A stretch of 64,000 nucleotides of DNA from Gammaproteobacteria bacterium (GCA_015487785.1 WFPC01000018.1:1-64000), one strand, 5' to 3'; shown: positions 14,468 through 27,883, counted from the stretch's first letter. Notes: generated by a model not told the origin, from the letters alone. Program-made: numbers and translations.

Positions 14468-15220
14468 ATGCGACGTTTTATTACTGCTGTGTCTGCCGCA
14501 GCATTTTTGCTTGGGGCGGTGGCGCCGTCTGTCGTGAACGCTTCCGCGCAGTATCCGCGGGGTAACGGAAACATCAGCAACGGCAAGGACATCTACTTCA
14601 ACGGCAAGGGCGATGTGCCCGCCTGTGCCTCTTGTCATGGTCAGGATGGCCTGGGTGACGACAACCTGGGCACTCCGCGGCTGGCGGGCCAGTTCGCTAT
14701 TTTTCTGCGCAAGCAACTGGAAGATTATGCCACCGACAAGCGCCAGGACACCACCATGTTCGTGATGAACGCCAATGCCAAGGGCCTGTCGCCGGCTGAC
14801 CGCAACGATGTGGCCACCTATCTGGAATCCATCAAGGTCAAGAACGACGGCAGTGCGGGGTCCAATCTCAAGGAGCTGGCGGCCAACGGCGTCGAGGTCG
14901 GTTTGACCCACAAGGGCAAGTCGCTGGTGGAGTTCGGTCAGGGCAACCGCGCCAAGCCGGTTCCGGCCTGTCGTTCCTGCCATGGCTACAACGGTCGAGG
15001 TGCACCGCCTGTGTATCCTCGCATCGGCGGTCAGAAGTACGTCTACTTGGTCAATCAGTTGAAGAAGTGGCGTGATGGCTCCCGTACCAACGATCCTCGC
15101 GGGCAGATGCAGGCCGTTGCGCGCAACATGACCGATGAAGACATCAAGAATGCCGCTGCCTACCTGACCGTGGCCAGTGACTACAGTAGCGGTAACTTCT
15201 TTACCCCGTACGATCACTGA
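14468..15220 (+). CDS. Dihaem cytochrome c (c4-like), periplasmic
   Basis: A signal peptide (MRRFITAVSAAAFLLGAVAPSVVNASA) is followed by two class I cytochrome c domains of about 100 residues. Haem motifs are CASCH at 53-57 and CRSCH at 168-172, each followed by a distal Met region (TTMFVMNANAKGLS and RGQMQAVARNMT). The halves share ...GQFAIFLRKQLEDY / GQKYVYLVNQLKKW. This is the cytochrome c4 plan, an electron donor to cbb3-type oxidases in several proteobacteria. ATG at 14468 lies within the first good window after GGGAGG. A strong terminator follows, so the gene is the distal part of a short transcript beginning at the 14.2-kb regulatory region. Confidence 0.9.
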   Translation: MRRFITAVSAAAFLLGAVAPSVVNASAQYPRGNGNISNGKDIYFNGKGDVPACASCHGQDGLGDDNLGTPRLAGQFAIFLRKQLEDYATDKRQDTTMFVMNANAKGLSPADRNDVATYLESIKVKNDGSAGSNLKELAANGVEVGLTHKGKSLVEFGQGNRAKPVPACRSCHGYNGRGAPPVYPRIGGQKYVYLVNQLKKWRDGSRTNDPRGQMQAVARNMTDEDIKNAAAYLTVASDYSSGNFFTPYDH

Positions 15221-15236
15221 GAGTTCGGTTGTCTGG

Positions 15237-15267
15237 AAAGGCGGGCTCTAAGCCCGCCTTTTTTTTG
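15237..15267 (+). terminator. Intrinsic terminator after the dihaem cytochrome gene
   Basis: AAAGGCGGGCT-cta-AGCCCGCCTTT forms an 11-bp stem followed by eight T residues in total, 17 bases after the cytochrome stop codon. Confidence 0.93.
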
Positions 15268-15328
15268 TCTGGCGATCGCTTTTGGTTTATGCTTTCGTTT
15301 CTCGTTTTAGTTTGCCTTGTGGGGTTCT

Positions 15329-15940
15329 ATGAGCAGCAAGAAGAAACAGCCATTGAAGGCGGGTGAAAAAATACTCTTGATCATATTCGGGGTATTTTTC
15401 GTTTTGGCCATGATCGCCTATGCGGCACTCGAGACGGTGCGGCTCAACAAGGAAGAACCCATGTTCGAGCAAACCACCTTTTTCGATTTCTCCGCAGTGG
15501 GCAAGGAGGGCTCCGAGCTCTATCGCAAGGCCCGGTGTAATTCCTGTCATCGCGCGCTGCGAACGGGGACCAGCATGGGCTTGATACTCGACGGCATTGG
15601 TTCCCGACGCTCGCTCGAATGGATAGAAAACTTCCTCGTCAACCCCGAGGCCACCTATGGGGCCCCAACCCTGGATCACGGTTTGCCGCCCAAGGAGGCG
15701 GCCTATGTGGCCCAGATGCCGCGGGAAGATTTGCACAAGATCGCCGTATTCCTGTCCGAGCTGCGGGCCAAGGCCGGTTCGGCCGTGGCCAAGGTGCCGC
15801 CGCCGGAGCGTTCCGAATTCATCGACAACATGGTGAAGGCCTGGGCGCCAGAGAGCTGGAAAGAAAAGTATGAAGACGTGCGTGAGCGGGGCTTGCCGGA
15901 AGAAGGCGCCGGCGGCGCGATGAATAAAACCAACGATTAA
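15329..15940 (+). CDS. Membrane-anchored monohaem cytochrome c, 203 aa
   Basis: An uncleaved N-terminal anchor (residues about 14-36, EKILLIIFGVFFVLAMIAYAAL) is followed by a periplasmic domain with one haem motif, CNSCH, at 65-69 and a likely Met ligand in YVAQMPREDL. The C-terminal 50 residues are charged and do not look like cytochrome. The overall order (anchor, CxxCH, WIENFLVNPEATYGAP..., Met) resembles the single-haem CcoO/NorC-type membrane cytochromes and the product of 22449 further downstream. ATG at 15329 is preferred to the track start at 15317. It is followed after 17 bases by a CcoN-like gene, implying a complex. Confidence 0.88.
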   Translation: MSSKKKQPLKAGEKILLIIFGVFFVLAMIAYAALETVRLNKEEPMFEQTTFFDFSAVGKEGSELYRKARCNSCHRALRTGTSMGLILDGIGSRRSLEWIENFLVNPEATYGAPTLDHGLPPKEAAYVAQMPREDLHKIAVFLSELRAKAGSAVAKVPPPERSEFIDNMVKAWAPESWKEKYEDVRERGLPEEGAGGAMNKTND

Positions 15941-15957
15941 TCTGGGTAGTGAAATCA

Positions 15958-16494
15958 ATGAGTGAAGCTTGGCATCACCCGCAGGAAACCGTCTACCGTC
16001 GTTATATCCTGTGGTTTTTCTACGCCTGTATCATCTATAGTTTGATCGGCTTCTCGTGGGGGGCCATCATGGGTGGGATATCGGAATTCAGGCATTTCGT
16101 TGACCACCGTCTGCACGGCAACCTCATCGTGCGGGGGCATACACACATCAACTTGCTGGGCTGGGTGGAAATGGCCATTTTCGGCGCGGTTTATTATATT
16201 ATTCCCCGCTTGGTCAAGCGGCCGATCTACAGTCTGAAACTGGTGAAAGTGCATTTCTGGGTGCACAACATCGGATTGTTGGGCATGGTCATCTTTTTCG
16301 TCATGGCCGGTATCATGGGCGGCATGGCCAGTGTCACGGCATCACCGGCGGAGGTGGAGCTCATCGTCAAACCCTTGCTGGCCACCATGGGAATATTTGG
16401 TACCTTGGTTCTTCTTGCCAATGGCATCTGGGCCTATAATCTTTTCCGGACCTGCGCCGGATGGGAGAAGTCGTATGAAAAGGAAGCTAACTAG
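15958..16494 (+). CDS. Four-helix CcoN/NorB-like membrane protein, 178 aa
   Basis: The protein has four membrane segments after a short N-terminus (YRRYILWFFYACIIYSLIGFSWGAIMGG). The segment LIVRGHTHINLLGWVEMAIFGAVYYIIPRLVKRPIYSLKLVKVHFWVHNIGLLGM resembles part of haem-copper oxidase subunit I: a His-rich helix, LLGWV, and YY.IP.L..RPIYS.KL...HFW. It is too short to hold a full catalytic core (no HH pair or cross-linking Tyr), so at most it could bind one haem b. ATG at 15958 is used; GTG at 15949 is an alternative. It overlaps the thioredoxin-like gene by 20 bases. It may be an accessory haem-b subunit paired with the preceding cytochrome c; this is inference. Confidence 0.72.
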   Translation: MSEAWHHPQETVYRRYILWFFYACIIYSLIGFSWGAIMGGISEFRHFVDHRLHGNLIVRGHTHINLLGWVEMAIFGAVYYIIPRLVKRPIYSLKLVKVHFWVHNIGLLGMVIFFVMAGIMGGMASVTASPAEVELIVKPLLATMGIFGTLVLLANGIWAYNLFRTCAGWEKSYEKEAN

Positions 16495-16990
16495 CGGTTT
16501 TCTGTCTGTTCTGTTGCTGGTAAACCTTGCGGCCTGTGGCACGTTCACGCCCGAAGGGGCCTTGTCGGTGGGGGCTGTTGCGCCTTCCATACGTACCAAG
16601 AAGCTCGAGGATGTGGGTGGGGACATGTCCAAGCTCACCACCTACCGTTACCCCGATGAGCGCATGTACCAGTACTCCATCGATGAAGCCCTGGCCCTGG
16701 GCAAGCCTATTCTGGTGGAGTTTGCTACTCCGGGACATTGCACCGTGTGCGACAAGCAATTGCAAATGCTCAAGGCCATGATTTCCAAATACGGCTCGGA
16801 TGTCTTGTTCCTGCACATGGACCAATACAAGAATCCCGAGGCCTTCACGGCGTTCCAGGTCAAGGGTGACCCCTGGACATTTGTCATTGATGCCAATGGC
16901 AAGGTGGTGTTTCGCCAAGCGGGTCGCATGCTCTATGGCGAGCTGGACAATGTGATTAGCCAGGTGGTAGGCAAGAACGGTAATGGCTGA
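16475..16990 (+). CDS. Thioredoxin-fold lipoprotein with CTVC motif
   Basis: A lipoprotein signal peptide (LLLVNLAAC, Cys21 as lipidated residue) leads to a thioredoxin-like domain: ALALGKPILVEFATPGHCTVCDKQLQML with the redox pair C89/C92, LFLHMDQYKN, and the cis-Pro region VKGDPWTFVIDANGKVVFRQAGRM. Such proteins reduce apocytochrome or metal-site thiols, or deliver copper in oxidase assembly. Its location inside a cytochrome/oxidase cluster supports a maturation role. The true ATG is 16475; the track's longer ORF extends antisense-like into the previous gene. It overlaps the upstream gene by 20 bases and the downstream gene by 8, so all three are translationally coupled. Confidence 0.88.
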   Translation: MKRKLTSGFLSVLLLVNLAACGTFTPEGALSVGAVAPSIRTKKLEDVGGDMSKLTTYRYPDERMYQYSIDEALALGKPILVEFATPGHCTVCDKQLQMLKAMISKYGSDVLFLHMDQYKNPEAFTAFQVKGDPWTFVIDANGKVVFRQAGRMLYGELDNVISQVVGKNGNG

Positions 16991-17438
16991 AGGACGCAGC
17001 TATACCCTCGTGCAAGACAGGCGGGGGATGTATTGGGATCTGCTTCTCTATATACCGACCTTGATCGCGTTGACGTCGGTGGCGATCCAGTTGTGGTACA
17101 GTGGCAACCAGAATCTGACTTATCTGCTGGTTTTTTTGACCACTTTCATTTTCTTGATCGCGTTCAATCGAATCGCAAAAACACGCCTGATGCTCCTGCC
17201 CAGCGCGGCTGTTGCTTTTTCCGTGAGCAGGCAAGGGGTTAGTTTGCGCCTGCGCAATGGTGACGAGATCACCCTGGCCAAGGATGTGCGTTTTTTCTCC
17301 GATATGGCCGGCAAGAGTTTTGGGTTGTCTGGCGTGGATCTGTCGGGCAAGCGCCAGCAATTCGTCTTTCACAAGGGGCAATTCGAGAGCGAGGCGCTCT
17401 TCAACGATGCAAAATCGGCCCTGCGCATTTTCAAGTAA
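16983..17438 (+). CDS. Membrane protein with two helices and a C-terminal PH-like domain, 151 aa
   Basis: Two adjacent membrane segments (about residues 18-40, WDLLLYIPTLIALTSVAIQLWY, and 46-64, LTYLLVFLTTFIFLIAF) are followed by an approximately 85-residue cytoplasmic part that looks beta-rich (AFSVSRQGVSLRLRNGDEITLAKDVRFFSD ... QFVFHKGQFES) with a terminal helix. This resembles membrane proteins with small PH-like beta domains, but no family is claimed. It overlaps the thioredoxin-like gene by 8 bases and closes the 15.3-17.4-kb set. The next gene is convergent, 5 bases away. Confidence 0.7.
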   Translation: MAEGRSYTLVQDRRGMYWDLLLYIPTLIALTSVAIQLWYSGNQNLTYLLVFLTTFIFLIAFNRIAKTRLMLLPSAAVAFSVSRQGVSLRLRNGDEITLAKDVRFFSDMAGKSFGLSGVDLSGKRQQFVFHKGQFESEALFNDAKSALRIFK

Positions 17439-17443
17439 CCGAC

Positions 17444-17659
17444 CTATTGGCGGCGACGGCGAACAATATCCCAGCCCAAAAAAGCCAGTCCAATGGCCCA
17501 GACCGCGGTCACGCCAATCTGAATCTTGGTTTCCGTTTCTTCTTCTACCAGGCCGCCAATGAACATGTGTGGCAAATAAGAGATCAACAGCAGGGAGCCT
17601 GCGGCGATCAACAGGTAAACCAGGCCTTCCCGAAGGGTGAGCGGGTCTCGCGGTTTCAT
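17444..17659 (-). CDS. Small two-helix membrane protein, 71 aa
   Basis: ATG is preceded by GGAGG at 7-base spacing, which supports a real gene. The protein has a basic start (MKPRDPLTLREG), a helix VYLLIAAGSLLLISYLPHMFIGGL, an acidic turn EEETETK, a second helix IQIGVTAVWAIGLAFLGWDI, and a basic end RRRRQ. It is the only minus-strand gene within the respiratory island between 14.2 and 27.9 kb and diverges from the 96-aa ORF upstream of ccoN. The family is not recognised. Confidence 0.65.
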   Translation of the reverse strand: MKPRDPLTLREGLVYLLIAAGSLLLISYLPHMFIGGLVEEETETKIQIGVTAVWAIGLAFLGWDIVRRRRQ

Positions 17660-17978
17660 TTGGATGCCTCCATTGTCGAGTGTTGTCGGAAGTGATTATG
17701 CCGGCTCTTGTGGCGCGGCTCAAATACGCGGCTTGGTATTTCCCACGGTAGCGCTATCTTTATATAAACGCTTGGTTATTGGTGTATTTTCGGTATTTTT
17801 TGAGGGCTATTTGGCGAGTGGCTAGCCAATCGAGCGATTCGAAGAAAGATTTGTGAGTTTGTTCTTGACGATGGGTTTTGCCTGTGTCAGGATTTCCTAG
17901 TTTCTTTATATAAGTAGAAACTTTTCCGCATGCCGGTTGTCCCGGCTGCCGGAAATCAACTCGCTTCGGAGGGTGGAA
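17660..17978. other. Divergent intergenic region, 319 bp, upstream of the oxidase operon
   Basis: AT-richer than surroundings. It contains a 10-bp palindrome TGGCTAGCCA within TTGGC-N9-GCCAA (17811-17829), a -35-like TTGACG at 17865, and TATATAAG near 17907. No clear promoter pair at 17-bp spacing and no FNR box were found. No ORF with a ribosome site was seen. Confidence 0.45.
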
Positions 17979-18269
17979 ATGCAAAATAAACTAACGATAG
18001 GGAAAACCTGGGCTGTTTTGCTGGTTGCGGCATTCACCACAGGAATGGGTAACGGCAGTGTGTTTGGCGCGGCCGTGATGTGTGCTGTGGGGCGTGGTCC
18101 CTATGAGAGCTGGGGCGGCTGGGGCGCTGAAGCCTTCAGTCCTTCCACATTCTCTGGATTTATCGACGTCATGATGATCGTGTTTGGTATTGCCTTCGCC
18201 ATCATCGTCGGTGCGGCCATGTCCAAGCACGGTGAAATTGAAGCGCAGCGGGACAACACTGGCTGGTAA
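17979..18269 (+). CDS. Small two-helix membrane protein at head of oxidase operon, 96 aa
   Basis: ATG at 17979 has a GGAGGGTGG ribosome site; the track's earlier start is not supported. Helix one is about residues 9-35 (TWAVLLVAAFTTGMGNGSVFGAAVMCAV), then a Gly/Trp/Ser-rich loop (GRGPYESWGGWGAEAFSPSTFSG), then helix two about 61-80 (FIDVMMIVFGIAFAIIVGAAM), then a charged tail. No haem motif. It sits 41 bases upstream of a 30-aa ORF and 182 bases upstream of ccoN, all on one strand. The family is not recognised; position suggests an oxidase accessory. Confidence 0.65.
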   Translation: MQNKLTIGKTWAVLLVAAFTTGMGNGSVFGAAVMCAVGRGPYESWGGWGAEAFSPSTFSGFIDVMMIVFGIAFAIIVGAAMSKHGEIEAQRDNTGW

Positions 18270-18310
18270 GTCGGTACGGCTGTTGAGAAGACACACTAAA
18301 GGGGGTTCAT

Positions 18311-18403
18311 ATGTTAGCGACTTTCGCGGGAGCGTGTGGGATTCTGCTAGCTTTTTCAAGCATGTGGTTTTCTTGGTATCTGCTGAATAAAATGGAAGAA
18401 TGA
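18311..18403 (+). CDS. Tiny single-helix membrane protein, 30 aa
   Basis: Not in the track. ATG follows AAAGGGGG at 5-base spacing. The product is MLATFAGACGILLAFSSMWF then SWYLLNKMEE, a single membrane helix with a short charged end. Its size and place 48 bases before ccoN recall the small single-helix subunits of terminal oxidases. It resembles in form, though not clearly in sequence, the 30-aa ORF at 14283. Confidence 0.6.
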   Translation: MLATFAGACGILLAFSSMWFSWYLLNKMEE

Positions 18404-18451
18404 TTCTTTACTGAATCTGGGGATTTGTAATTAATTGGGAGGTGAGATTTC

Positions 18452-19861
18452 ATGCTGCTGAAATATCTCTTTGCCAAAAATGATGAGATTCCGCCGGGAT
18501 CGGCAACGATCTTTTTCGGTTTTTCATCCATTTTTTGGTTTGTTGTTGGTACGGGTTTGGGTTCTTTCAATGCCGCCAAGCTGGCGTTTCCCGACTGGGT
18601 AACCGGTACGGAAATGTTCGCTTTCGGTCACATGCGTCAGGTGCACGTTCTGGCCGTAATCCTGGGCTGGATCTCCATGGCCTTCGGTATGACCATGATG
18701 TACATGACGCCGGCGCTGGGTAACACCAAGCTGTGGTCGGAGAAGCTGGGTCTGTGGACGGTGTTCCTGTGGAATATCGGTCTGAGCCTGGGTCTGCTGC
18801 TGCTGTGGTTGGGTTTTACTTCCGGTCGTGAGTACAACGATCTGATCTGGCCCATCGACCTGGTGGTGATCTGTGGTGTGTTGCTGCCGTTGGGCATCAA
18901 CGTATGGATGACTATTGCGCATCGTAAGACACAAGGTATCTATATCACCAACTGGTTCTTCGGTGCCTGTATTTTCATGGTGATCGTGGTGTTTGTCGTG
19001 GGTCAGTCGCCCGAGCTGTTCGGTCTGACCGGGTTGACCGAGGCATACCTCACCTTCTGGTTCGCGCACAACGTGTTGGGCTTGTGGATCACTCCGGTTG
19101 CCGCGGCCATCGCCTACTACACCATTCCGAAGCTGACCGGTAATCCGCTGTATTCACACCGGATTGCACACCTGCACTTCTGGGCCATCATCGCTTTCTA
19201 CTCGACGCCGGCTTCTCACCACCTGATGTCAGCTCCGCTGCCCGAGTGGTTGAAGTCCTTTGCCTCTGTGGAAGGTGTGTTGATCCTCATTCCGGCAATT
19301 GCCTTCGTGGCCAACATCCTGCTGACCATGAAGGGCAAGTGGAGCATGTTCGTCGAGAACGTGGAAACCAAGTTCTCCATCACTGGCGTGTTGCTGGCCA
19401 TTCCCCTGAATATGCAGGGTGGCTTCCAGCAGACTCGCGCGATCAACTGGTATGTGCATGGCACGGGCTGGATCGTGGCTCACGCTCACCTGGCTCTGCT
19501 GGGGATGTCGAGCTTCCTGGAGGCGGCAGCTGTATATTTCGGTCTGCAGCAAATGCTGCGCCGCAAGCTGTACTCCCTGACGCTGGCCAACCTGCACTAC
19601 TGGTTCTTCCTCGTTGGTTTCTGCATCTACTGGATCTCCATGACCATCGCCGGCCTGATCCAGGGCGCTGGCAAGATCTACGAGGTTCCGTACATCGACG
19701 TGGTCGTTGCCGAGCACCCCTACATGATCGCCCGCTGGGTGGGTGGTACCATGGTGTTCACCGGTAACGTCGTATGGCTCTACAACATGTGGATGACTGC
19801 CCGCGAAGGTACCCTGGTACCGGCTGGCAAGTACGCCCACGAGTTGGCTTACGAGCGGTAA
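18452..19861 (+). CDS. ccoN: Divergent cbb3-type (C-family) cytochrome c oxidase subunit I
   Basis: This 469-aa, twelve-helix protein has the C-family haem-copper pattern. By eye-alignment to cbb3 CcoN: His65 (MRQVHV) as a haem b ligand; His206 (FAHNVLG) and His256-His257 (STPASHHLM) as CuB ligands; Tyr250, five residues before the HH pair, at the place of the cross-linked Tyr of cbb3 oxidases; His344 and His346 (IVAHAHLALLG) as haem b3 and haem b ligands. Retention of Tyr argues for O2 reduction rather than NO reduction. The FEGPMM segment of CcoN reads MQGGFQQ here, apparently replacing a conserved Glu by Gln. GGGAGGTGAG precedes ATG. It is followed by an enlarged CcoO-like gene; no ccoP follows. 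Confidence 0.88.
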   Translation: MLLKYLFAKNDEIPPGSATIFFGFSSIFWFVVGTGLGSFNAAKLAFPDWVTGTEMFAFGHMRQVHVLAVILGWISMAFGMTMMYMTPALGNTKLWSEKLGLWTVFLWNIGLSLGLLLLWLGFTSGREYNDLIWPIDLVVICGVLLPLGINVWMTIAHRKTQGIYITNWFFGACIFMVIVVFVVGQSPELFGLTGLTEAYLTFWFAHNVLGLWITPVAAAIAYYTIPKLTGNPLYSHRIAHLHFWAIIAFYSTPASHHLMSAPLPEWLKSFASVEGVLILIPAIAFVANILLTMKGKWSMFVENVETKFSITGVLLAIPLNMQGGFQQTRAINWYVHGTGWIVAHAHLALLGMSSFLEAAAVYFGLQQMLRRKLYSLTLANLHYWFFLVGFCIYWISMTIAGLIQGAGKIYEVPYIDVVVAEHPYMIARWVGGTMVFTGNVVWLYNMWMTAREGTLVPAGKYAHELAYER

Positions 19862-19951
19862 GAGTCGACGGAATAAAGCAAATAACGTTGTAAATGCCTG
19901 GGCCTCCGCTGGGGGCCCAGGTGCTCCAAAAATTAGGGAGGAGGAATCACA

Positions 19952-20908
19952 GTGGGCTTCAGACAATACAAATTTGGTGCGGCCGGTGTCGGTCTGATGC
20001 TTGGCTTTTCCATGTGCATCACGCTGTTTGGTCCGAGTAACGATTTCCGCTCAGGGGTTTCCACCTGGGTGGGGCTGGACAAGCAGTTGTCACTGGGCCG
20101 AGTCATCGGATTCAGCTACGAAGATCCGACCGTTTCGGGTGATGGCAAGCCGGTCACCGTTATCCTGGACAAGGATCCCAAGACGGGTGAGGCCATCGAT
20201 CCGCCTCAGCGCTTCTATGTCTACAAGGCAGGAACCAAGTTCTCTCCGGGTGTGAATCACCCCGAGTTGCTGGGTCCTGGTGTCGAAGACCTGAGCCTGA
20301 GCATTGGCAAGATCAAGGCTGCCGACGTGTCGTCCGGTGCCGTGTTCACCGTTTCCAAGGGTGAGTTCAACGGCGAGGAAATCGACTACATCGAGAACGT
20401 GACCGCCACTCGTGGCTGGTCACCCGAGGAAACGCTGCGAGCTGCCGGTGACGAAAACAGCCGTTATGTGGGCAAGGGCAAGACCATCTACATCTCGGAA
20501 GGTTGCTGGTGGTGTCATACCCTGCTGCCCGAGCAGACACAAGACTGGCAGGTGTTCGGTGCGCCGCCTTTCTTGGGCGACTTCAATGGGGAGATGCCCA
20601 CCGCGTTTGGGTCCGACCGCAAGGCACCCGACCTGCTTCACGTAGCGGCGCGCAACTCTTCGCGTGAGTGGATGGAGATGCACTTTTTCAATCCGCGTCT
20701 GGTACAGCCTAACTCCATCATGCCTCGCTTCGACTATCTGTGGGGCAAGACGGATGCGGATGGCAACACCATCGACTACGCGAAGTGGCGTGCAGAGTAC
20801 ATGGCCTATCTGAATGGTGAGTCTATCTATCCGCCGGAAGTACCGAAGCCTGCGCCCGATTCAGAGGTCAGGGCTTTGATCGACTGGATTCTCACGAGCT
20901 TGAAATAA
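19952..20908 (+). CDS. ccoO: CcoO-like monohaem cytochrome c subunit with large insertion
   Basis: An N-terminal helix (residues 7-27) anchors the protein. The C-terminal half matches CcoO: GKTIYISEGCWWCHTLLPEQTQDW with CxxCH at 185-189, FGSDRKAPDLLHVAARNSSREWMEMHFFNPRLVQPNSIMPRFDYLW with the Met ligand at 257. Typical CcoO is about 200 aa; this is 318 aa because some 130 residues of beta-rich, haem-free sequence lie between anchor and haem domain (DPTVSGDGKPVTVILDKDPKTGEAIDPP...). GTG start has GGGAGGAGG. It is 90 bases downstream of ccoN. It should pass electrons from soluble cytochromes to the CcoN haems. Confidence 0.87.
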   Translation: MGFRQYKFGAAGVGLMLGFSMCITLFGPSNDFRSGVSTWVGLDKQLSLGRVIGFSYEDPTVSGDGKPVTVILDKDPKTGEAIDPPQRFYVYKAGTKFSPGVNHPELLGPGVEDLSLSIGKIKAADVSSGAVFTVSKGEFNGEEIDYIENVTATRGWSPEETLRAAGDENSRYVGKGKTIYISEGCWWCHTLLPEQTQDWQVFGAPPFLGDFNGEMPTAFGSDRKAPDLLHVAARNSSREWMEMHFFNPRLVQPNSIMPRFDYLWGKTDADGNTIDYAKWRAEYMAYLNGESIYPPEVPKPAPDSEVRALIDWILTSLK

Positions 20909-20923
20909 GAGGGGGTATAAGAA

Positions 20924-21562
20924 ATGGGATTCAAATTTGATCAGCCTCTTTACTCGCTCTCCGACGAGCAAGAGCAGAAGGAAATTCTGGCTTTGTGGGA
21001 ATCGGAGAAGCACGGTGGTCTGTGGGAAGGCAACAATCGTCTGCCTTTCCCGCTGACCTTCCTGATCGCATTGGTTATCCTGACGGCATTCATGATTACC
21101 ATGCCGATCTGGGGTCAGCGTCCAACGGCTCAGGATTTCGCCAATCACGTCAAGCTGATGGATTCGCCTGAAGTCCAGCGTTTGGCCACCCCGGAAGAGA
21201 AGATGAAGTATGTGGCCAATGCGGCTTACCAGATGGCGGACAATCGCACCAAGGGCAACCTTGAGCGTCACCCCATCACCTGGGACGATCTGCTGAATAT
21301 CGCTCCACAGATCAAGGAAATCCAGGCGGGCAAGGGTAAGTATCCGCTGGACAACTATACTGTGCTGGGTGATCGCATCGTATTGGCCAATTTCGAGGGT
21401 AACATGCGTCCCGATGGTCTGCGCGAGCGTAAACAGCCGTGGTGGGATATCGGGTTTACCATCGACGTGTTCTACGTGAGTTACTTCATTCTCACTGTGT
21501 TTCTGATCGTCAAGCGCCTGCCGCACTTCTCGCGCAAGCCTGATATGTCGAAAGCAAGTTAA
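20924..21562 (+). CDS. Haem-free two-helix membrane protein in the CcoP position, 212 aa
   Basis: It follows ccoO by 15 bases with ribosome site AGAGGGGG. Residues about 43-63 (PFPLTFLIALVILTAFMITMP) and 184-203 (FYVSYFILTVFLIVKRL) are membrane helices; the 120 residues between are soluble and probably periplasmic. There is no CxxCH, so it cannot replace the dihaem CcoP as an electron carrier. The N-terminal cytoplasmic part is charged (SLSDEQEQKEILALWESEKHGG). I do not recognise the family. Its place directly after the two catalytic subunits makes a structural subunit or assembly role likely, but that is inference. Confidence 0.8.
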   Translation: MGFKFDQPLYSLSDEQEQKEILALWESEKHGGLWEGNNRLPFPLTFLIALVILTAFMITMPIWGQRPTAQDFANHVKLMDSPEVQRLATPEEKMKYVANAAYQMADNRTKGNLERHPITWDDLLNIAPQIKEIQAGKGKYPLDNYTVLGDRIVLANFEGNMRPDGLRERKQPWWDIGFTIDVFYVSYFILTVFLIVKRLPHFSRKPDMSKAS

Positions 21563-21574
21563 GGGAGATGTGAA

Positions 21575-21721
21575 ATGATCGATATCGACAATGGCCCATT
21601 GGTATTTGCAGTCATCATCTTTTTCGTCTTCCTGCTGCCGGCGCTCTATGGAATGCTGTTCGTGGATGCGTTCTGGAAGAAGCATCAGCAAGAGTCGACC
21701 GATGACGACGTATTCAACTAA
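21575..21721 (+). CDS. Small single-helix membrane protein (CcoQ-like position), 48 aa
   Basis: Not in the track. ATG has GGGAGATG upstream at good spacing. The product starts MIDIDNGPLVFAVIIFFVFLLPALYGML and ends in a charged tail FWKKHQQESTDDDVFN. One helix plus a short cytoplasmic tail is the CcoQ plan; sequence identity with CcoQ is not obvious. It lies 12 bases after the 212-aa gene and is the last gene before a strong terminator. Confidence 0.68.
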   Translation: MIDIDNGPLVFAVIIFFVFLLPALYGMLFVDAFWKKHQQESTDDDVFN

Positions 21722-21741
21722 AACAAAGCTGTATTGACTCG

Positions 21742-21770
21742 AAAGCCGCTCTCAGGAGCGGCTTTTTTTT
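21742..21770 (+). terminator. Intrinsic terminator closing the oxidase operon
   Basis: AAAGCCGCT-ctcagg-AGCGGCTTT with a run of eight T residues, 20 bases after the stop of the 48-aa gene. Confidence 0.93.
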
Positions 21771-21831
21771 AGGCAAGAAAAGCCCAAATCAATTAAAATG
21801 CTGATCCTGCTTCGAGATTTCCGAGGGATGG

Positions 21832-22176
21832 ATGGTGACTCTTCAACTTTATGATGTGTTCGTGCATTTGTTCGACTTAATGGATGGCATAACTTTTTTT
21901 CATGGTCTTGTTGCCGAGGCGGAGGATTCCGGCAAATATGTTTTTGGAATTGATATGAGTATTGAGGGTCTAAGATCCAAACAATACAGTTACTATATTT
22001 TCGGGTTCCTGATTCTTTCAATAATACTTTTCTCCTACATTATTTATTTGTATTTGCCCAAGGGAGGAAAGTCACTCAAAAAAGGTGAAAAAGTCATGTT
22101 TGGAGCCCTGGTTTTGGGGGTGATCGCGGCCATTATCATTGGCTGGATCCAGTTGATCGAAGGATATCTACTTTAA
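21832..22176 (+). CDS. Membrane protein of unknown function, AT-rich gene, 114 aa
   Basis: Two C-terminal helices are seen (about residues 53-75, YYIFGFLILSIILFSYIIYLYL, and 88-110, MFGALVLGVIAAIIIGWIQLI), with a basic loop between (PKGGKSLKKGEK). The N-terminal 50 residues are partly hydrophobic with acidic patches. Base composition is clearly more AT-rich than neighbours (for example TTATGATGTGTTCG), which could mean recent gain or relaxed selection. Start is uncertain: ATG 21832, GTG 21835 or ATG 21828 lie close together near GAGGG. It is the first gene after the terminator and 10 bases before the CcoS-like gene. Not recognised. Confidence 0.6.
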   Translation: MVTLQLYDVFVHLFDLMDGITFFHGLVAEAEDSGKYVFGIDMSIEGLRSKQYSYYIFGFLILSIILFSYIIYLYLPKGGKSLKKGEKVMFGALVLGVIAAIIIGWIQLIEGYLL

Positions 22177-22186
22177 AGGTGTGACA

Positions 22187-22462
22187 ATGGCGGAATTTTT
22201 TCAAAATCTACCGGATGGCTGGACCATCTATCTTTGGCTGATTGTTGCGGCCATGATCTTGATCGCGGCAGGTTTCATGCTGCGCTGGGCGGCCAAGAAC
22301 AACCAATTCGATGAAGACATCAAATATGTGGTGTTCGATGAGACGGACAAGGACAAGATGACCGAGGAAGAATTCAAGAAATACCAGGAAGTGATCGAGG
22401 AGCAGAAAAAGGCGCGTGAGGCAGCCCTGCGGGAGAAAGCGAAGCGACATGCGGAGAGGTGA
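22187..22462 (+). CDS. CcoS/FixS-like cbb3 oxidase assembly protein with extended tail
   Basis: One membrane helix (residues about 12-33, WTIYLWLIVAAMILIAAGFML) is followed by RWAAKNNQFDEDIKYVVFDETDKDK. This matches the CcoS pattern (helix, WAxxxxQFDD..., then a hydrophobic-Phe-Asp segment), a protein needed for cofactor insertion in cbb3 oxidases. The extra 35 residues (MTEEEFKKYQEVIEEQKKAREAALREKAKRHAER) form a charged coiled coil that usual CcoS proteins lack. ATG 22187 follows AAAGGTG; the track's GTG lies two codons upstream. It overlaps the next cytochrome gene by 14 bases. It ties this second operon functionally to the CcoN-CcoO oxidase. Confidence 0.65.
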   Translation: MAEFFQNLPDGWTIYLWLIVAAMILIAAGFMLRWAAKNNQFDEDIKYVVFDETDKDKMTEEEFKKYQEVIEEQKKAREAALREKAKRHAER

Positions 22463-22946
22463 GAAAGGCATCGTCGTGGCGATGGTGATCTCAGTCGCCG
22501 TATTGGGTGGTTATCGCTGGTATAAGAATGCACAGGATACCGAAGAAGACCCCGGGATTCCCTTCTATTCAACCGCAAGTCCGGAGTTGACATCGAAGGC
22601 GGCGAAAATCATGCACCGGGAGAACTGCAAGGATTGCCACAGCTTATGGGGTACCAAGGACTTCACCCAGGCGGTGCCGGCGCCGTCCCTGGACGGCATC
22701 GGCCGATTTCGCAGCGAGGAGTGGTTGTACAAATATTTCTCGGCCGAAGTGCCACAAGATATTTTGCCAACGCGGCTGAAGCCGCAATACCGCATGCCTT
22801 CCATGGCGCACCTGTCCGAGGAAGAGCGGCGGGTGTTGGCCAAATATATGGCCAGTCTCCAGGTGGAGGACTGGTATTTCGAAGAAACCAAAAAAGCACG
22901 CTACGAGAAGTTGACAGGGAAGCCTTATCCTGGCGATGAACAATAA
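22449..22946 (+). CDS. Membrane-anchored monohaem cytochrome c, 165 aa
   Basis: A short N-terminal anchor (residues about 7-24, GIVVAMVISVAVLGGYRW) is followed by one class I haem domain: AKIMHRENCKDCHSLWG with CxxCH at 60-64, APSLDGIGRFRSEEWLYKYF, and the Met ligand in PQYRMPSMAHLSEEERRVLAKYM. This is the same layout as the 15329 product, and the gene order cytochrome c then membrane protein is repeated. ATG at 22449 overlaps the CcoS-like gene; the track start at 22416 is upstream read-through. The stop overlaps the following gene by 11 bases. Confidence 0.88.
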   Translation: MRRGEKGIVVAMVISVAVLGGYRWYKNAQDTEEDPGIPFYSTASPELTSKAAKIMHRENCKDCHSLWGTKDFTQAVPAPSLDGIGRFRSEEWLYKYFSAEVPQDILPTRLKPQYRMPSMAHLSEEERRVLAKYMASLQVEDWYFEETKKARYEKLTGKPYPGDEQ

Positions 22947-23436
22947 TCCATTGAAATTCAAATTAATCGAGCTGAGCTGGGCTACCATGGCGCTCGCCGC
23001 GGCGTCGGTGGTGATTTTTGTGGGCAATCAGGTGCTGGATGTGTCCATGGATATTTTCTATGGTGTGAGTACCTTCAATCCGCGCTGGATTACCAACTTG
23101 TTTCTCGTGCCCTTCATTGCGGGAATCGTGGTTTCCCTGATCTATGGTCTGGGCGGAAAAATCATCGCCCATTTGGCGCCCCTGCCCGTGATGTTGTTCA
23201 ATTATCTCTCCCTGGACAAGGCCCTGTTGCCGGAAGGCGTGGTGCAACTGCCGATCTATTATTGGCTGCTGGTCGTCATCGTGGCCATGGAGTTTGCGGG
23301 TATTGGAGGTGTGGTCGGTGAGATTTTGATCAAGAAAACCTATGGGCGGCGGCCCAAGGAAGCCATTCATGTGCGTTACCAGCGTGGCATCAAGGAGCGC
23401 CTGGGTGGTCCTGCCGGGCAGTCAGACACGGAATAG
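22936..23436 (+). CDS. Four-helix membrane protein, 166 aa, unknown
   Basis: Hydrophobic segments lie at about residues 14-36, 50-72, 76-95 and 104-131 (LPIYYWLLVVIVAMEFAGIGGVVGEILI). The C-terminus is basic (KKTYGRRPKEAIHVRYQRGIKERLGG). His and Met are few within the helices, so a haem-b role is not evident; H80 (IIAHLAPLP) is the only His in a helix. The gene overlaps the cytochrome c gene by 11 bases and is followed after 15 bases by the SUMF1-domain gene, so they are one operon. Not recognised. Confidence 0.7.
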   Translation: MNNNPLKFKLIELSWATMALAAASVVIFVGNQVLDVSMDIFYGVSTFNPRWITNLFLVPFIAGIVVSLIYGLGGKIIAHLAPLPVMLFNYLSLDKALLPEGVVQLPIYYWLLVVIVAMEFAGIGGVVGEILIKKTYGRRPKEAIHVRYQRGIKERLGGPAGQSDTE

Positions 23437-23451
23437 ACGAGCAGTAGGGGA

Positions 23452-24561
23452 ATGAAGCTGAAAGAACGAGCGACGGCGGCGCCTTCGGCAGAGCAGCGAG
23501 AGATACGCAAGCGCTATCTTGGGGCCACATTCGTGACCTGTGTGGTGTTAGCCCTAATCGGTGGCACCATCCATGTGCTGCAGCTTGGCGCCAATCGCAT
23601 GAATGAAATGCGCGATCTGGCGGGCATAGATCTGGAAAATGAAAAGGAACACATTCGCGCCGCAGGTGAAGATCTCTACCGTAATATGGCGCACGAAAAA
23701 CGACTCACTCATACCTTGACCTATACCATGGAAGAGGCTGCCGGCCTGTTGGGCGTGAATGAATGGAAGAGCCTGGCCGAAATGGTGGAGGTGCCTGCCG
23801 GCGAGTTTTTGATGGGCACCGATTATCTTAAAGCCGATGCCCAGAACAAGCCGCAACACAAGGTCTACCTCGATGCGTTCAAAATCGACAAGCATGAGGT
23901 GACCAATGCCGAATATGCCCGCTTCGTTGCCGAAACCAATCATCGTCCGCCCTTGAACTGGAGCAAGGGCAAATTCGATCCAGGCTATGAGATGCATCCG
24001 GTGACCATGGTGACCTGGTTCGATGCGCGTGATTATTGCGCTTGGGAGGGGAAGCGCCTGCCCACCGAAGCCGAGTGGGAAAAGGCGGCCAGAGGTACCG
24101 ATGGCCGGCGCTGGCCATGGGGTGACCGCATGGATGTAAAACGCCTCAATACCTATTACAGTGTGGGCTCGACAACCCCGGTGGGCAGTTATCCCCTGGG
24201 CGCCAGCCCCTATGGTGCCTTGGACATGGCGGGGAACGTGGCTGAATGGGTGGACAGTGAATTGGTGCCGTACAAGGGTTCGACGGCACCGGAAGAGGTG
24301 TTCAAGGCCAAGATTCCCGTGATTCCCAAGGATGAAAAGGAAAAACAGATGAGTGTGGTCGATTTCGTCGAGACCGATCTCAGATACAAGGTCATGCGGG
24401 GTGGATCCTGGAAGAGCGACCCCTTTTCGACCTCTACCTACCACCGTAATTCCCAGTGGCCGCAGTTGACCACGGACTTCTATGGGTTTCGTTGTGCCCA
24501 GGATATTGAGCCTGAAACGACGAAATCCGAAAAAACTCAGGATGGTGCCTCCAATGGTTAG
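23452..24561 (+). CDS. Membrane-anchored SUMF1-domain protein lacking formylglycine-enzyme cysteines
   Basis: An N-terminal anchor (residues about 23-45) and a linker helix lead to a SUMF1/FGE-type domain from about 110: EVPAGEFLMGTDYLKADAQNKPQHKVYLDAFKIDKHEVTNAEYARFV, HPVTMVTWFDARDYCAWEGKRLPTEAEWEKAARGTDGRRWPWGD, GALDMAGNVAEWVDS, and the ending VMRGGSWKSDPFSTSTYHRNSQ...YGFRCA. True formylglycine-generating enzymes have a Cys pair in the segment after GGSW; it is missing here. Related non-FGE members include NirV-like proteins of denitrification loci. Position in a cytochrome operon suggests a maturation or structural role outside sulfatase activation. It overlaps the next ORF by 8 bases. Confidence 0.88.
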   Translation: MKLKERATAAPSAEQREIRKRYLGATFVTCVVLALIGGTIHVLQLGANRMNEMRDLAGIDLENEKEHIRAAGEDLYRNMAHEKRLTHTLTYTMEEAAGLLGVNEWKSLAEMVEVPAGEFLMGTDYLKADAQNKPQHKVYLDAFKIDKHEVTNAEYARFVAETNHRPPLNWSKGKFDPGYEMHPVTMVTWFDARDYCAWEGKRLPTEAEWEKAARGTDGRRWPWGDRMDVKRLNTYYSVGSTTPVGSYPLGASPYGALDMAGNVAEWVDSELVPYKGSTAPEEVFKAKIPVIPKDEKEKQMSVVDFVETDLRYKVMRGGSWKSDPFSTSTYHRNSQWPQLTTDFYGFRCAQDIEPETTKSEKTQDGASNG

Positions 24562-24799
24562 ATTGTCGCTGTTTGCCTTTTTGGCGTTTTTTTCTTCACA
24601 GGTTCCGGCAGCCACAGACAGTTATCGCTGGTTGCACGTGACCATCGAAACGCCTTGGGCCATATTCATTTTTCTTCTGCCCATGGTGTTGTTGCCAGCG
24701 GTGTTGATGGCGCTTTTGTATTGGAAGTATGCGGGCAAGAAAAAACCGGCAAAGGATGAAGAAAGCTCGGTTGTGTCCAAAGACGTGTCGGCGGATTGA
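24554..24799 (+). CDS. Small exported/membrane protein, 81 aa
   Basis: A signal-peptide-like start (MVRLSLFAFLAFFSSQVPAA), a short periplasmic stretch (TDSYRWLHVTIETPW), then one helix (AIFIFLLPMVLLPAVLMALLYWKYA) and a cytoplasmic charged tail (GKKKPAKDEESSVVSKDVSAD). ATG 24554 has AGGATGG eight bases upstream and is chosen over the ATG at 24542. It overlaps the SUMF1 gene by 8 bases and precedes the next gene by 11. Not recognised. Confidence 0.62.
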   Translation: MVRLSLFAFLAFFSSQVPAATDSYRWLHVTIETPWAIFIFLLPMVLLPAVLMALLYWKYAGKKKPAKDEESSVVSKDVSAD

Positions 24800-24810
24800 G
24801 GCTGGGTGCA

Positions 24811-25173
24811 ATGACCATGACTGTACGCAATATTCTAGTAGTGCTCGTTGTTGTTCTTGCCTCGGCGGTTTTTTTCAGCCCGGGGATTTCCCTGGCCAAT
24901 GAGTCGGCCTCGGTGCTGAAGCCCTTTACGGAGAATGTGGCGGCGGGCGATTTGGGCGAGTCGTTCGACCAGACGCGTGAACGTCGCAAAATCCTGTTTT
25001 TGATGGGTGTGGCCTTGCTCATTCTTATTTTCGCCACTGCTTCGCTGGGTATTGCCATGGCGATCAAAGGCAAGCAGGTTTTCGTGGCCCACATGGTGAC
25101 CGCGGGGTTCACCGTGTTTCTGGCCGTGGCCCATGCGGTGGCTTCCATCGTGTGGTTCTTTCCCTATCGCTGA
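24811..25173 (+). CDS. Small membrane protein with signal peptide, 120 aa
   Basis: An N-terminal hydrophobic export signal (RNILVVLVVVLASAVFFSPGISLA) is followed by a polar region of about 40 residues and two helices (KILFLMGVALLILIFATASLGIAMAI and VFVAHMVTAGFTVFLAVAHAVASIVWFFPYR). His residues in the last helices (VAHMV, AVAHAV) could bind haem, but there is no direct evidence. ATG 24811 is used; ATG 24817 two codons later is an alternative. Member of the 21.8-27.9-kb operon. Not recognised. Confidence 0.62.
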   Translation: MTMTVRNILVVLVVVLASAVFFSPGISLANESASVLKPFTENVAAGDLGESFDQTRERRKILFLMGVALLILIFATASLGIAMAIKGKQVFVAHMVTAGFTVFLAVAHAVASIVWFFPYR

Positions 25174-25285
25174 TTCGCGATCATCGAGAGCGTGTTTTTT
25201 GGTGGTCAGCTATTGAGGTCTTCCACCAGCGGTCGATTGTCGAGCGGTCCTGCCTGTGACCAAGACGGTGGGAGGGCAGTCGCCA

Positions 25286-27883
25286 ATGCCTGCTAGTGGG
25301 CGATATGCCCCTTTGTTGATCGTTTTCGTCTATTTTCTCTCAGGTATGGCGGCACTGGCCTACGAGGTTCTGTGGGCCAAGATGCTGGGCCTGATATTTG
25401 GTGCCAGTATTTTCGGCGTGGTCATTACCATCGCCGCCTTCATGGCTGGTCTGGGTTGTGGCAGCAGTGCAGGGTTTTATTTGCAACGGCGCATCCGCAG
25501 GCCCTTGATGGTATTCGCCTTCATTGAAATAGGCATTGGTTTTTTCGCCTTCAATCTGCCTGCCTTGCTGGCTCTGGCCGATAGCGAATTGCTTGCCCTG
25601 GGCGAGAACTTTGTCTTTGCCGGCTGGTTTGGTCTGCAAGCGCTGATATTTTTCTCGGTACTGTTTCTGCCAGCCTTTGCCATGGGGTTTGGTTTCCCGA
25701 TGATTCTGCGAGCGTTGCAGAACTCATCCATTGGCTTGTCCACCATATACGCCATAAATACCTTGGGCGGTGTGCTCGGTGCCTTGCTGCCCCTGCTGTT
25801 GTTGCCGGTGTTTGGCTGGACCGTGGCCGATCGTCTGGTAGCGCTCGGTTCTTTTTTGATCGGGGGGCTGGCCTTGGTTCTGGCCTGGAGAGGCAAGGTG
25901 TCCCAAGGGTGGCTCGGACATCCGGCGGCGAGCCGCATTCACTGGCCCTCGGCATTGGCCTATGCGGTAATCGGGGCGGCGGCGCTGATGCTGCAAGTGG
26001 CCTGGACGCGCATCTATGGCATGTTGTTGTTGCGCACCGAATATGTCATGGCGATCATTCTGGCCAGTTTTTTAGTGGGTATCGGCCTGGGCAGTTATCT
26101 GGCAAGGTGGATGCGGCAGGGTTTTTGGTTGCTGGTGTTGCCGTTGTTGGCGGCATTTTTCAGTGTGCTTACCCTGTGGGCCTTGCCGTGGCTGGCACAA
26201 TGGGCGGAAACGGCGCACTTCGAGTCCTTGTTGGGTGCGATGTTGGCGCAGTCGGCCATGATCGTGCTGATGACCTTGCCGGTAACCCTGGCCTTCGGTG
26301 CCTGGTTGCCCGTGCTCACGCGTGAGTATGGCGATGATCACAGCCATGGGGCGGTGTATTACGCCACCAATTCCTTGGGGGCGGCAGTGGGCGCCTTGCT
26401 GGCCGGGTTGCTCATAACACCCTGGCTGGGCAGCGCGGCCGTGGTATGGGTGGCGGTGGCAATGATTTTGCTGGCCAGCCTGGTTTGGGTACGCAGGCCG
26501 ACCTATCTGGCTTTGGCGGCAACCGTGATGGTGCTGGCCGTGCCGGTGGCCAGCCTGCCGCCAGTCAATCGTCTGTTGCCGGTATCCCAGGCTGGCAGCC
26601 GCGACCTGGCGGTCTACGAGGATGCGCTTGGTATCACCCATGTGGTGGAACAGGCCGATGGCACACGCCTGTTGCTGGCGGATCTGCACCGTATGGATGC
26701 CTCCACCGAGCCCACCGCGGTGGCGGTACAGAAGAATCAGGCCCGTTTGCCCCTGCTGCTGGCCGCGCGGGCGCAAAAAGTGCTTTTTCTTGGTTTGGGT
26801 ACCGGTATCACGGCGGCGGGCTCTTTGCCCTGGAATGTGGCCGAGCGCACGGCGGTGGAGTTGTCTGCCGGTGCCATCGCGGCGGCTGGCGAGGCCTTTC
26901 GCCCGGTTAATGAGGCCGTGGTGGAACGCCTGCAGGTGGTGCGCGACGATGCCAGGCGGTTTTTAAAGCTCGATGACGGGCATTACGATGTCATCGTCGG
27001 TGACCTGTTTCATCCCGATCTGATCGGGCGTAGCGCGCTCTTGTCATTACAGCAGTTCCAGCGGGCACGGGCGCACTTGAGTGAAAGTGGCCTGTTCGTG
27101 CAATGGTTGGCATTGAACCAGTTCGATCTGTATTCATTGCGGGTGGTTTTGCAGACCTTTCGCCAGGTTTTTCCCTCGGCGGTGATGTTCATGGACGGTT
27201 TCCGCCTGGCGCTGGTGGGTAGCAGGAGCGGAGATATTACCTTTGCTCCCGCGGTGTGGCGGCACCTCGCCGGTGGAGAGGTCGGCGCCATGAGCGGTGG
27301 CGAGGGCGGCTGGACCTGGTTGGGGCGTTATTTTGGCCGCATCGCTGATCAACGGGTGCCGGTACAGGACGAATGGGCGCCGGTGATCGAGTTCAGTCTG
27401 CCGGCGGCGCGCTATGGGCAACGGGTCAGGCTGGAGGAGGTCTCCTGGTTCTTGCTGCGCCAGCGCCCGGATCCGCAGCAGGCGGCGCGTGAGCTGGGGG
27501 TGAGGCAAGCGGATTATCAGGCCTTCGAACAGGCCTATATGGCGACCAATTTCATCTTCAGCAGTTGGCTAGCAGGGTTTGCCGGCGATGCCTCCCGCTC
27601 TGAACAGTTCCTGCGCATGGCCTACCAGGCCAATGCCCGTGATCGCTGGGTGGGTTTCAGTCTGGCCGATCGGCTTTTCGATAATCTCGACCGCTTGGTG
27701 GCCGAGGGACAGGATCGGCGTGAGCTTTTACAACGGGTTTTGCAGATTCGGCCCGACCACTTGGCCAGCCTGAAGGCCTTGTGGCGCCTGGAGCAGGCCG
27801 CGGGCAACGCGGTGGCGGCAGCAGATTACCTGCAGCGCATCCGCCATCTGAATCCTCTGGACAAGATGGTGAGGCAGAACTAG
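25286..27883 (+). CDS. Membrane-fused spermidine-synthase-like protein, 865 aa
   Basis: The N-terminal half has about twelve to fourteen helices with MFS-like GxG patterns (FVYFLSGMAALAYEVLWAKMLGLIFGASIFGVVITIAAFMAGLGCGS ... MGFGFPMILRALQNSSIGLSTIYAINTLGGVLGALL). After about residue 480 comes a polyamine aminopropyltransferase-like Rossmann domain: KVLFLGLGTGITAAGSLPWNVAERTAVELSAGAIAAAGEAF and DDARRFLKLDDGHYDVIVGDLFHPDLIGRSALLSLQQF; the last 120 residues look like TPR-type helices. Such fused proteins are widespread and their substrates mostly unknown. ATG 25286 has GGGAGGGC upstream and is preferred over GTG 25256. It ends the cytochrome operon before a terminator. Confidence 0.8.
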   Translation: MPASGRYAPLLIVFVYFLSGMAALAYEVLWAKMLGLIFGASIFGVVITIAAFMAGLGCGSSAGFYLQRRIRRPLMVFAFIEIGIGFFAFNLPALLALADSELLALGENFVFAGWFGLQALIFFSVLFLPAFAMGFGFPMILRALQNSSIGLSTIYAINTLGGVLGALLPLLLLPVFGWTVADRLVALGSFLIGGLALVLAWRGKVSQGWLGHPAASRIHWPSALAYAVIGAAALMLQVAWTRIYGMLLLRTEYVMAIILASFLVGIGLGSYLARWMRQGFWLLVLPLLAAFFSVLTLWALPWLAQWAETAHFESLLGAMLAQSAMIVLMTLPVTLAFGAWLPVLTREYGDDHSHGAVYYATNSLGAAVGALLAGLLITPWLGSAAVVWVAVAMILLASLVWVRRPTYLALAATVMVLAVPVASLPPVNRLLPVSQAGSRDLAVYEDALGITHVVEQADGTRLLLADLHRMDASTEPTAVAVQKNQARLPLLLAARAQKVLFLGLGTGITAAGSLPWNVAERTAVELSAGAIAAAGEAFRPVNEAVVERLQVVRDDARRFLKLDDGHYDVIVGDLFHPDLIGRSALLSLQQFQRARAHLSESGLFVQWLALNQFDLYSLRVVLQTFRQVFPSAVMFMDGFRLALVGSRSGDITFAPAVWRHLAGGEVGAMSGGEGGWTWLGRYFGRIADQRVPVQDEWAPVIEFSLPAARYGQRVRLEEVSWFLLRQRPDPQQAARELGVRQADYQAFEQAYMATNFIFSSWLAGFAGDASRSEQFLRMAYQANARDRWVGFSLADRLFDNLDRLVAEGQDRRELLQRVLQIRPDHLASLKALWRLEQAAGNAVAAADYLQRIRHLNPLDKMVRQN

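Follow-up and report, generated by a model that had tools for sequence, protein, structure and literature searches.

The cbb3-type oxidase of Ferrovum JA12 has been described as consisting of subunits I and II only (FERRO_02570/02560), and co-localised cytochromes were proposed to replace subunit III (PMC4725956). Two cbb3 forms, proximal and distal after Ducluzeau 2008, are described in Zetaproteobacteria and Sideroxydans; in Sideroxydans the proximal form is up on Fe(II) and a Cyc1 homolog lies beside a cbb3 cluster, and in Sideroxydans ES-1 one type goes with Fe(II) and the other with thiosulfate (PMC7029218, PMC8788666). In 'Candidatus Tenderia electrophaga', a cbb3-like variant of complex IV encoded outside the full ccoNOPQ operon is very highly expressed, and the Cyc1 region is syntenic with that of Mariprofundus (PMC5371394).

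We analyzed a 64,000-nucleotide stretch of DNA from a Gammaproteobacteria bacterium (GCA_015487785.1 WFPC01000018.1:1-64000; the window). Its sequence makes it quite probable that the oxidase encoded there is a C (cbb3) family haem-copper O2 reductase, a cytochrome c oxidase of Fe(II)-oxidising Proteobacteria. With the cbb3 oxidase of P. stutzeri (3mk7, CcoNO(Q)P) it shares the CcoN fold, all metal ligands, the Tyr, an equivalent of Glu122 (E127), the FixO domain and a FixS-like gene nearby; it differs in the catalytic subunit (about 30% identity, Glu323 replaced by Gln, Ser240 by Gly/Ala), in an insert of about 120 residues in CcoO, in having neither a dihaem CcoP nor a clear CcoQ, and in extra small membrane proteins. 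Like Ferrovum JA12, it lacks subunit III and has co-localised cytochromes, and F. myxofaciens P3G (L096) carries a block of the window type, whereas the text on JA12, which we compared by description, contains neither the 212-aa protein nor the CcoO insert nor the wider block (PMC4725956). The complex IV variants of Tenderia were likewise compared by description, and the block itself is present in a gammaproteobacterial biocathode MAG (L055). The proximal and distal forms differ in subunit composition, as do the two cbb3 forms, window clade and ordinary CcoNOP, found in one further class of carriers (that of family f73); the proximal cbb3 of the literature may correspond to the window clade.

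The enzyme is partly known, being called cbb3, with two subtypes, in the literature on iron oxidisers, where the missing subunit III was noted in Ferrovum. New here are the third protein (p212), which is probably a haem-less counterpart of CcoP, and the Gln in place of Glu323 in all clade members. In a search of the main texts of open-licence papers, neither p212 nor the insert in CcoO was found described, nor were the substitution at Glu323 and the block as a whole.

A conserved block around the oxidase genes

A search of the species-genome collection with p212 yielded 98 relatives, and 80 loci were kept for block counts. The genes of the block, with the number of these loci in which each was found where counted, are as follows.

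14468..15220, + strand: c4-type cytochrome with two haems, 250 aa, a candidate for a Cyc1-like donor (Cytochrom_C twice, E=3e-19; in order in 38/80 loci)
15329..15940, + strand: membrane-anchored monohaem cytochrome c (Cytochrom_C, E=7e-6; 39/80)
15949..16494, + strand: short membrane protein resembling the C-terminal half of CcoN, 181 aa, invariant H56, H64, H66, H102 (PF00115 positions 311-428, E=1.7e-17)
16475..16990, + strand: thioredoxin-fold protein with CxxC (Thioredoxin, E=3e-6; invariant C93 and C96, conservation-alignment numbering)
16983..17438, + strand: 151-aa membrane protein, no Pfam match (39/80)
17444..17659, - strand: conserved 71-aa two-helix protein, inverted wherever the upstream module is present
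17979..18269, + strand: membrane protein of 96 aa, with which the core block starts (71/80)
18311..18403, + strand: 30-aa single-helix protein, 55-93% identity (70/80)
18452..19861, + strand: CcoN-like catalytic subunit, 469 aa (PF00115, E=1e-73; ligand table; tree)
19952..20908, + strand: CcoO-like monohaem subunit, 318 aa, with the insert (FixO, E=1.7e-16; predicted model; fold match 3mk7_B)
20924..21562, + strand: p212, 212 aa, probable haem-less CcoP counterpart with a CcoP-like N-terminal anchor motif, a helical periplasmic domain and a second TM helix
21575..21721, + strand: 48-aa single-helix protein (65/80)
21832..22176, + strand: membrane protein of 114 aa with a very weak resemblance to FixQ at E=0.027 (77/80)
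22187..22462, + strand: FixS/CcoS-like maturation protein (PF03597, 23.6 bits, cut-off 23.1; 79/80)
22449..22946, + strand: membrane-anchored monohaem cytochrome c, 165 aa, candidate electron-entry subunit (Cytochrom_C, E=4e-7; 79/80)
22936..23436, + strand: 166-aa membrane protein of no known family (78/80)
23452..24561, + strand: membrane-anchored FGE/SUMF1-like protein (PF03781, E=1e-56; 77/80)
24542..24799, + strand: 86-aa single-helix protein (74/80)
24796..25173, + strand: 125-aa membrane protein, invariant H99 and H113 (70/80)
25256..27883, + strand: membrane protein of 875 aa that closes the block and has a spermidine-synthase-like domain (PF01564, E=1.5e-6; 68/80)

The conserved block spans positions 14468 to 27883 and comprises about 14-20 genes in an almost fixed set. 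As far as the contigs reach, and apart from a few small genes that escaped detection, the 80 loci share the order 96-30-ccoN-ccoO-p212-48-114-93-cytochrome-166-FGE-86-125-875, and the same order is found in another proteobacterial class. In about half of the loci the core is preceded by an upstream module, which consists of the c4 cytochrome, the anchored cytochrome, the short CcoN-like protein, the thioredoxin-fold protein and the 151-aa protein; the c4 cytochrome was not found beside the block in the other class.

A previous sequence-only reading had described the genes between 17979 and 21721 as one unit. Its coordinates and proteins are right, and the three tiny or small flanking ORFs that it noted (96, 30 and 48 aa) are conserved as listed above; the core genes are real, but the block of about 20 genes and the context of iron oxidation had been missed. 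That reading also ended the unit at a strong terminator. A stem-loop with a T-run is indeed visible near 21745-21772, a site that the terminator consensus scan does not include, but it does not end the functional neighbourhood, because the conserved block runs on to 27883.

The genome of the window encodes two short proteins resembling the C-terminal half of CcoN, one in the window (15949-16494) and one elsewhere (G000:C29:325-570), and a relative is encoded downstream, on the opposite strand, in Ferrovum and at several loci of Gallionella. The window protein, which has the four invariant histidines and accompanies the oxidase block, is possibly a small haem b protein. Two membrane proteins, the FGE/SUMF1-like (23452-24561) and the spermidine-synthase-like one (25256-27883), are kept within the oxidase block.

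The catalytic subunit and its distribution

The COX1 profile covers the full length of the CcoN-like protein, and a PDB sequence search matches it to P. stutzeri CcoN (E=1e-62); its score for the ccoN equivalog is far below the cut-off (220.7 vs 583.15 bits). Alignment of 32 clade members with 27 other CcoN and three NORs places H65, H206, H256, H257, H344 and H346 opposite H60, H207, H257, H258, H345 and H347 of P. stutzeri, and Y250 opposite Y251. These six ligands of haem b, haem b3 and CuB and the tyrosine, which occupies the C-family position in 32/32 members, are invariant in the clade, ambiguous X letters aside, and the earlier assignment of the ligands and the cross-link Tyr by eye was correct; E127, T214, Y222 and H242 are likewise fixed among the 32 clade sequences. 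The reading of the FEGPMM region as MQGGFQQ (residues 321-327) also holds, and the motif is nearly invariant across the 32 clade sequences. The canonical cbb3 mark of the FEGPM motif, Glu323, is absent from the window CcoN: it is replaced by Gln in all 32 clade sequences and retained in 25 of the 27 other CcoN, the two exceptions, which likewise have Gln, probably being the divergent L165 and L180. Substitution of Ser240 by Gly or Ala is also specific to the clade. In cbb3 oxidases, Glu323 forms a hydrogen bond to the proximal His of haem b3 and helps to keep its potential low; hypothetically, Gln at this position might therefore raise the haem b3 potential, as would be fitting for a donor of high potential.

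In a tree with NOR as outgroup, the window CcoN clade is separated from ordinary CcoN (support 94/96 on the clade's side, 99/95 on the ordinary side) and is sister to all ordinary CcoN sampled, in a deep position near the NOR root, the exact placement of which is made less sure by long branches (NOR, L165, L180). Identity is 65-96% within the clade and about 30% to ordinary CcoN; among the matches listed in 299 genomes of the phylum, full-length clade members have at least 65% identity and all others at most 33%. In this phylum sample, 42 genomes harbor the clade CcoN, 42 harbor p212 and 40 harbor both, the discordant ones being fragmented MAGs, and neither was found in the remaining 255 genomes.

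The distinct C-family clade supposed from the window alone is borne out by the tree, and the proposed co-occurrence of the 212-aa protein with it (40/42 genomes each way, 0 of the other 255) was confirmed. The subclass is not unseen: cbb3 without subunit III has been reported in Ferrovum JA12 (PMC4725956), and two cbb3 forms in Zetaproteobacteria and Sideroxydans (PMC7029218, PMC8788666).

Ferrovum myxofaciens P3G, 'Ca. Gallionella acididurans' and further Gallionella are among the carriers in the 80 loci, together with the biocathode gammaproteobacterium and many other Gammaproteobacteria MAGs. The further class carrying the clade (families f73, f93 and f106) is probably Zetaproteobacteria, as its second cbb3, of the ordinary type, and published descriptions suggest.

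The MAG of the window is 94.9% complete. In it we found no FixP_N domain, one FixO and one full CcoN, which is the only full haem-copper oxidase; no CydA of a bd oxidase and no FixH were found, though the FixS/CcoS-like protein passes the Pfam cut-off. A dihaem CcoP hidden elsewhere on the chromosome, which would have weakened the earlier reading, was looked for and not found in this genome. The locus falls outside the canonical CcoNOQP oxidases on account of CcoP and Glu323, and its catalytic subunit, with six His, the Tyr and its grouping with CcoN apart from NOR, belongs to the C-family O2 reductases.

The CcoO-like protein and p212

The FixO domain of the CcoO-like protein is confined to residues 175-273; the same stretch starts at residue 55 in 3mk7_B, and the window protein therefore has about 120 extra residues, slightly fewer than the 130 estimated before. 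The insert itself and the single CWWCH, both noted in that estimate, were confirmed: the motif is single in 86/86 CcoO-like members, as in a monohaem CcoO, and the insert is fixed in the clade. The score for the ccoO equivalog is below the cut-off (62.9 vs 200.65 bits), and the closest fold match of the predicted model is 3mk7_B (probability 0.99, but E=5.5e-3). The insert (residues ~50-165) is confidently predicted to form a beta-rich domain between the anchor and the haem domain; a fold search with it gave only insignificant OB-fold-like matches and no cupredoxin.

In p212, TM helices span residues 42-62 and 176-197 and CxxCH is absent from 92/92 members, in agreement with the earlier description of a haem-free two-helix protein; the two cytochrome domains of CcoP are lacking. 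Profile searches gave no family at cut-off, and its profile retrieved nothing credible from the PDB sequences. A degenerate cytochrome c fold is unsupported, since a structure search gave no cytochrome match, nor any fold match for the periplasmic domain. Comparison of 25 CcoP N-termini with 91 p212 sequences by hhalign gave a score of 32.6 (E=5e-5 for this one comparison), whereas 100 block-shuffled controls did not exceed 24.2. With the same CcoP profile, other block proteins scored at most 18.3. The match is short (about 40 residues) and of moderate support; its core is ungapped across GIxE-x-NN-P/R-LP, with E35 conserved in 78/91, N37 in 91/91, N38 in 89/91 and P41 in 91/91 sequences. Beyond this motif, p212 is unlike CcoP, with its helical periplasmic domain, second TM helix, no CxxCH and no PDB relative. 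A glutamate of the CcoP N-terminus is located at the K-channel entry in cbb3. The view that the 212-aa subunit is unrelated to CcoP probably has to be corrected: because the GIxE-NN-LP anchor motif and the gene position of CcoP are kept, p212 is better read, from its sequence, as probably a haem-less CcoP counterpart. If so, the conserved role of CcoP would be separable from its haems.

It is rather unlikely that the window enzyme is simply a cbb3-type oxidase that lost CcoP, i.e. a CcoNO core with cytochromes in place of subunit III, p212 being an unrelated protein with an accessory or assembly role. The Ferrovum authors proposed such a replacement (PMC4725956), the FixS-like gene shows that assembly factors occur inside the block, and the periplasmic domain of p212 has no fold match; but the CcoN clade stands apart from the ordinary proteins, the CcoO insert is fixed in it, and p212 has retained the anchor motif of CcoP and accompanies the clade as closely as a subunit would.

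Electron donor and substrate

RuBisCO is present in the genome of the window, and so is a homolog of the fused cytochrome-porin Cyc2 (463 aa; match at G000:C58:57562-57678). This protein carries AVPAFARQVGQPCTACHYQHFPTL, which is near the published Cyc2 signature, AXPXFAR[QK][TY] with CXXCH and PXL (PMC8406198), with Val at the T/Y position. Using as query a hand-written 39-aa stretch of the signature region, with a threshold of E<1e-4, we detected Cyc2 in 10/17 p212 carriers vs 3/39 non-carriers of the class sample (Fisher p=1e-4, a value that ignores kinship, many of these genomes sharing one family) and in 4/4 genomes from the other class. The source bacterium is a probable iron oxidiser, and the enzyme is most likely its cytochrome c oxidase dedicated to Fe(II) respiration.

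There is a small chance that the oxidase receives its electrons from sulfur or another lithotrophic donor instead of Fe(II) and that iron oxidisers share it by transfer. The labels of several carriers are Chromatiaceae, Thiotrichaceae or vent Gammaproteobacteria, and Cyc2 was not detected in 7/17 carriers; however, the named carriers with known physiology are iron oxidisers, the genome of the window itself has Cyc2, and the cbb3 types of ES-1 divide between Fe(II) and thiosulfate.

For an Fe(II)-linked oxidase, a tentative proposal is a subclass for high-potential (Fe(II)/cathode) electrons, in which the haem-less CcoP relative docks, electrons go straight into CcoO, the Glu323 to Gln change raises the b3 potential, and about 14 co-inherited genes, including the FGE-like and spermidine-synthase-like ones, build or join the complex. 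In the favoured, less far-reaching reading, electrons would pass from outer-membrane Cyc2 to the c4-type cytochrome and the anchored monohaem cytochromes of the block, from these to the haem bound at CWWCH in the enlarged CcoO, and further to haem b (H65/H346) and to haem b3 (H344) and CuB (H206/H256/H257) with Tyr250; p212 would fill the structural place of CcoP without a haem, docking by the retained N-terminal motif. Since p212 is haem-less, we propose that electrons enter CcoO directly or through the 165-aa cytochrome, and an electron-entry route of its own is plausible. We infer both the composition of the complex and the order of donors, and the oxidase presumably pumps protons. For the path from Fe(II) to O2 after Cyc2 in iron oxidisers, the block would name the likely terminal enzyme, entry cytochromes and subunits; it is common to gamma-, beta- and probably zetaproteobacterial iron oxidisers and may offer a further marker in genomes, in addition to cyc2.

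That the enzyme is a cNOR-related nitric oxide reductase is highly improbable, and this reading was rejected on residues: cNOR (3o0r) and qNOR (3ayf) belong to the same superfamily and share the His ligands, a few letters near the haem ligands (e.g. HGT, AHAH) are NOR-like and the clade lies deep near the NOR root, but the NOR glutamates, of which the one in helix VI near FeB marks that family, are replaced by G210 and T214 in the clade, Tyr250 is present where NOR has Gly, the partner is CcoO and not NorC, and no other full haem-copper oxidase was detected in this genome, which also encodes RuBisCO and Cyc2. Because the NOR glutamates are absent and the ligands and the Tyr are kept, the clade should reduce O2.

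L165 (4309-5622) and L180 are very divergent relatives of CcoN that stand apart from other ordinary CcoN and have atypical cytochrome partners: one adjoins a monohaem protein with a CcoP-like anchor, and the other is found with a CcoO frame containing three haem motifs.
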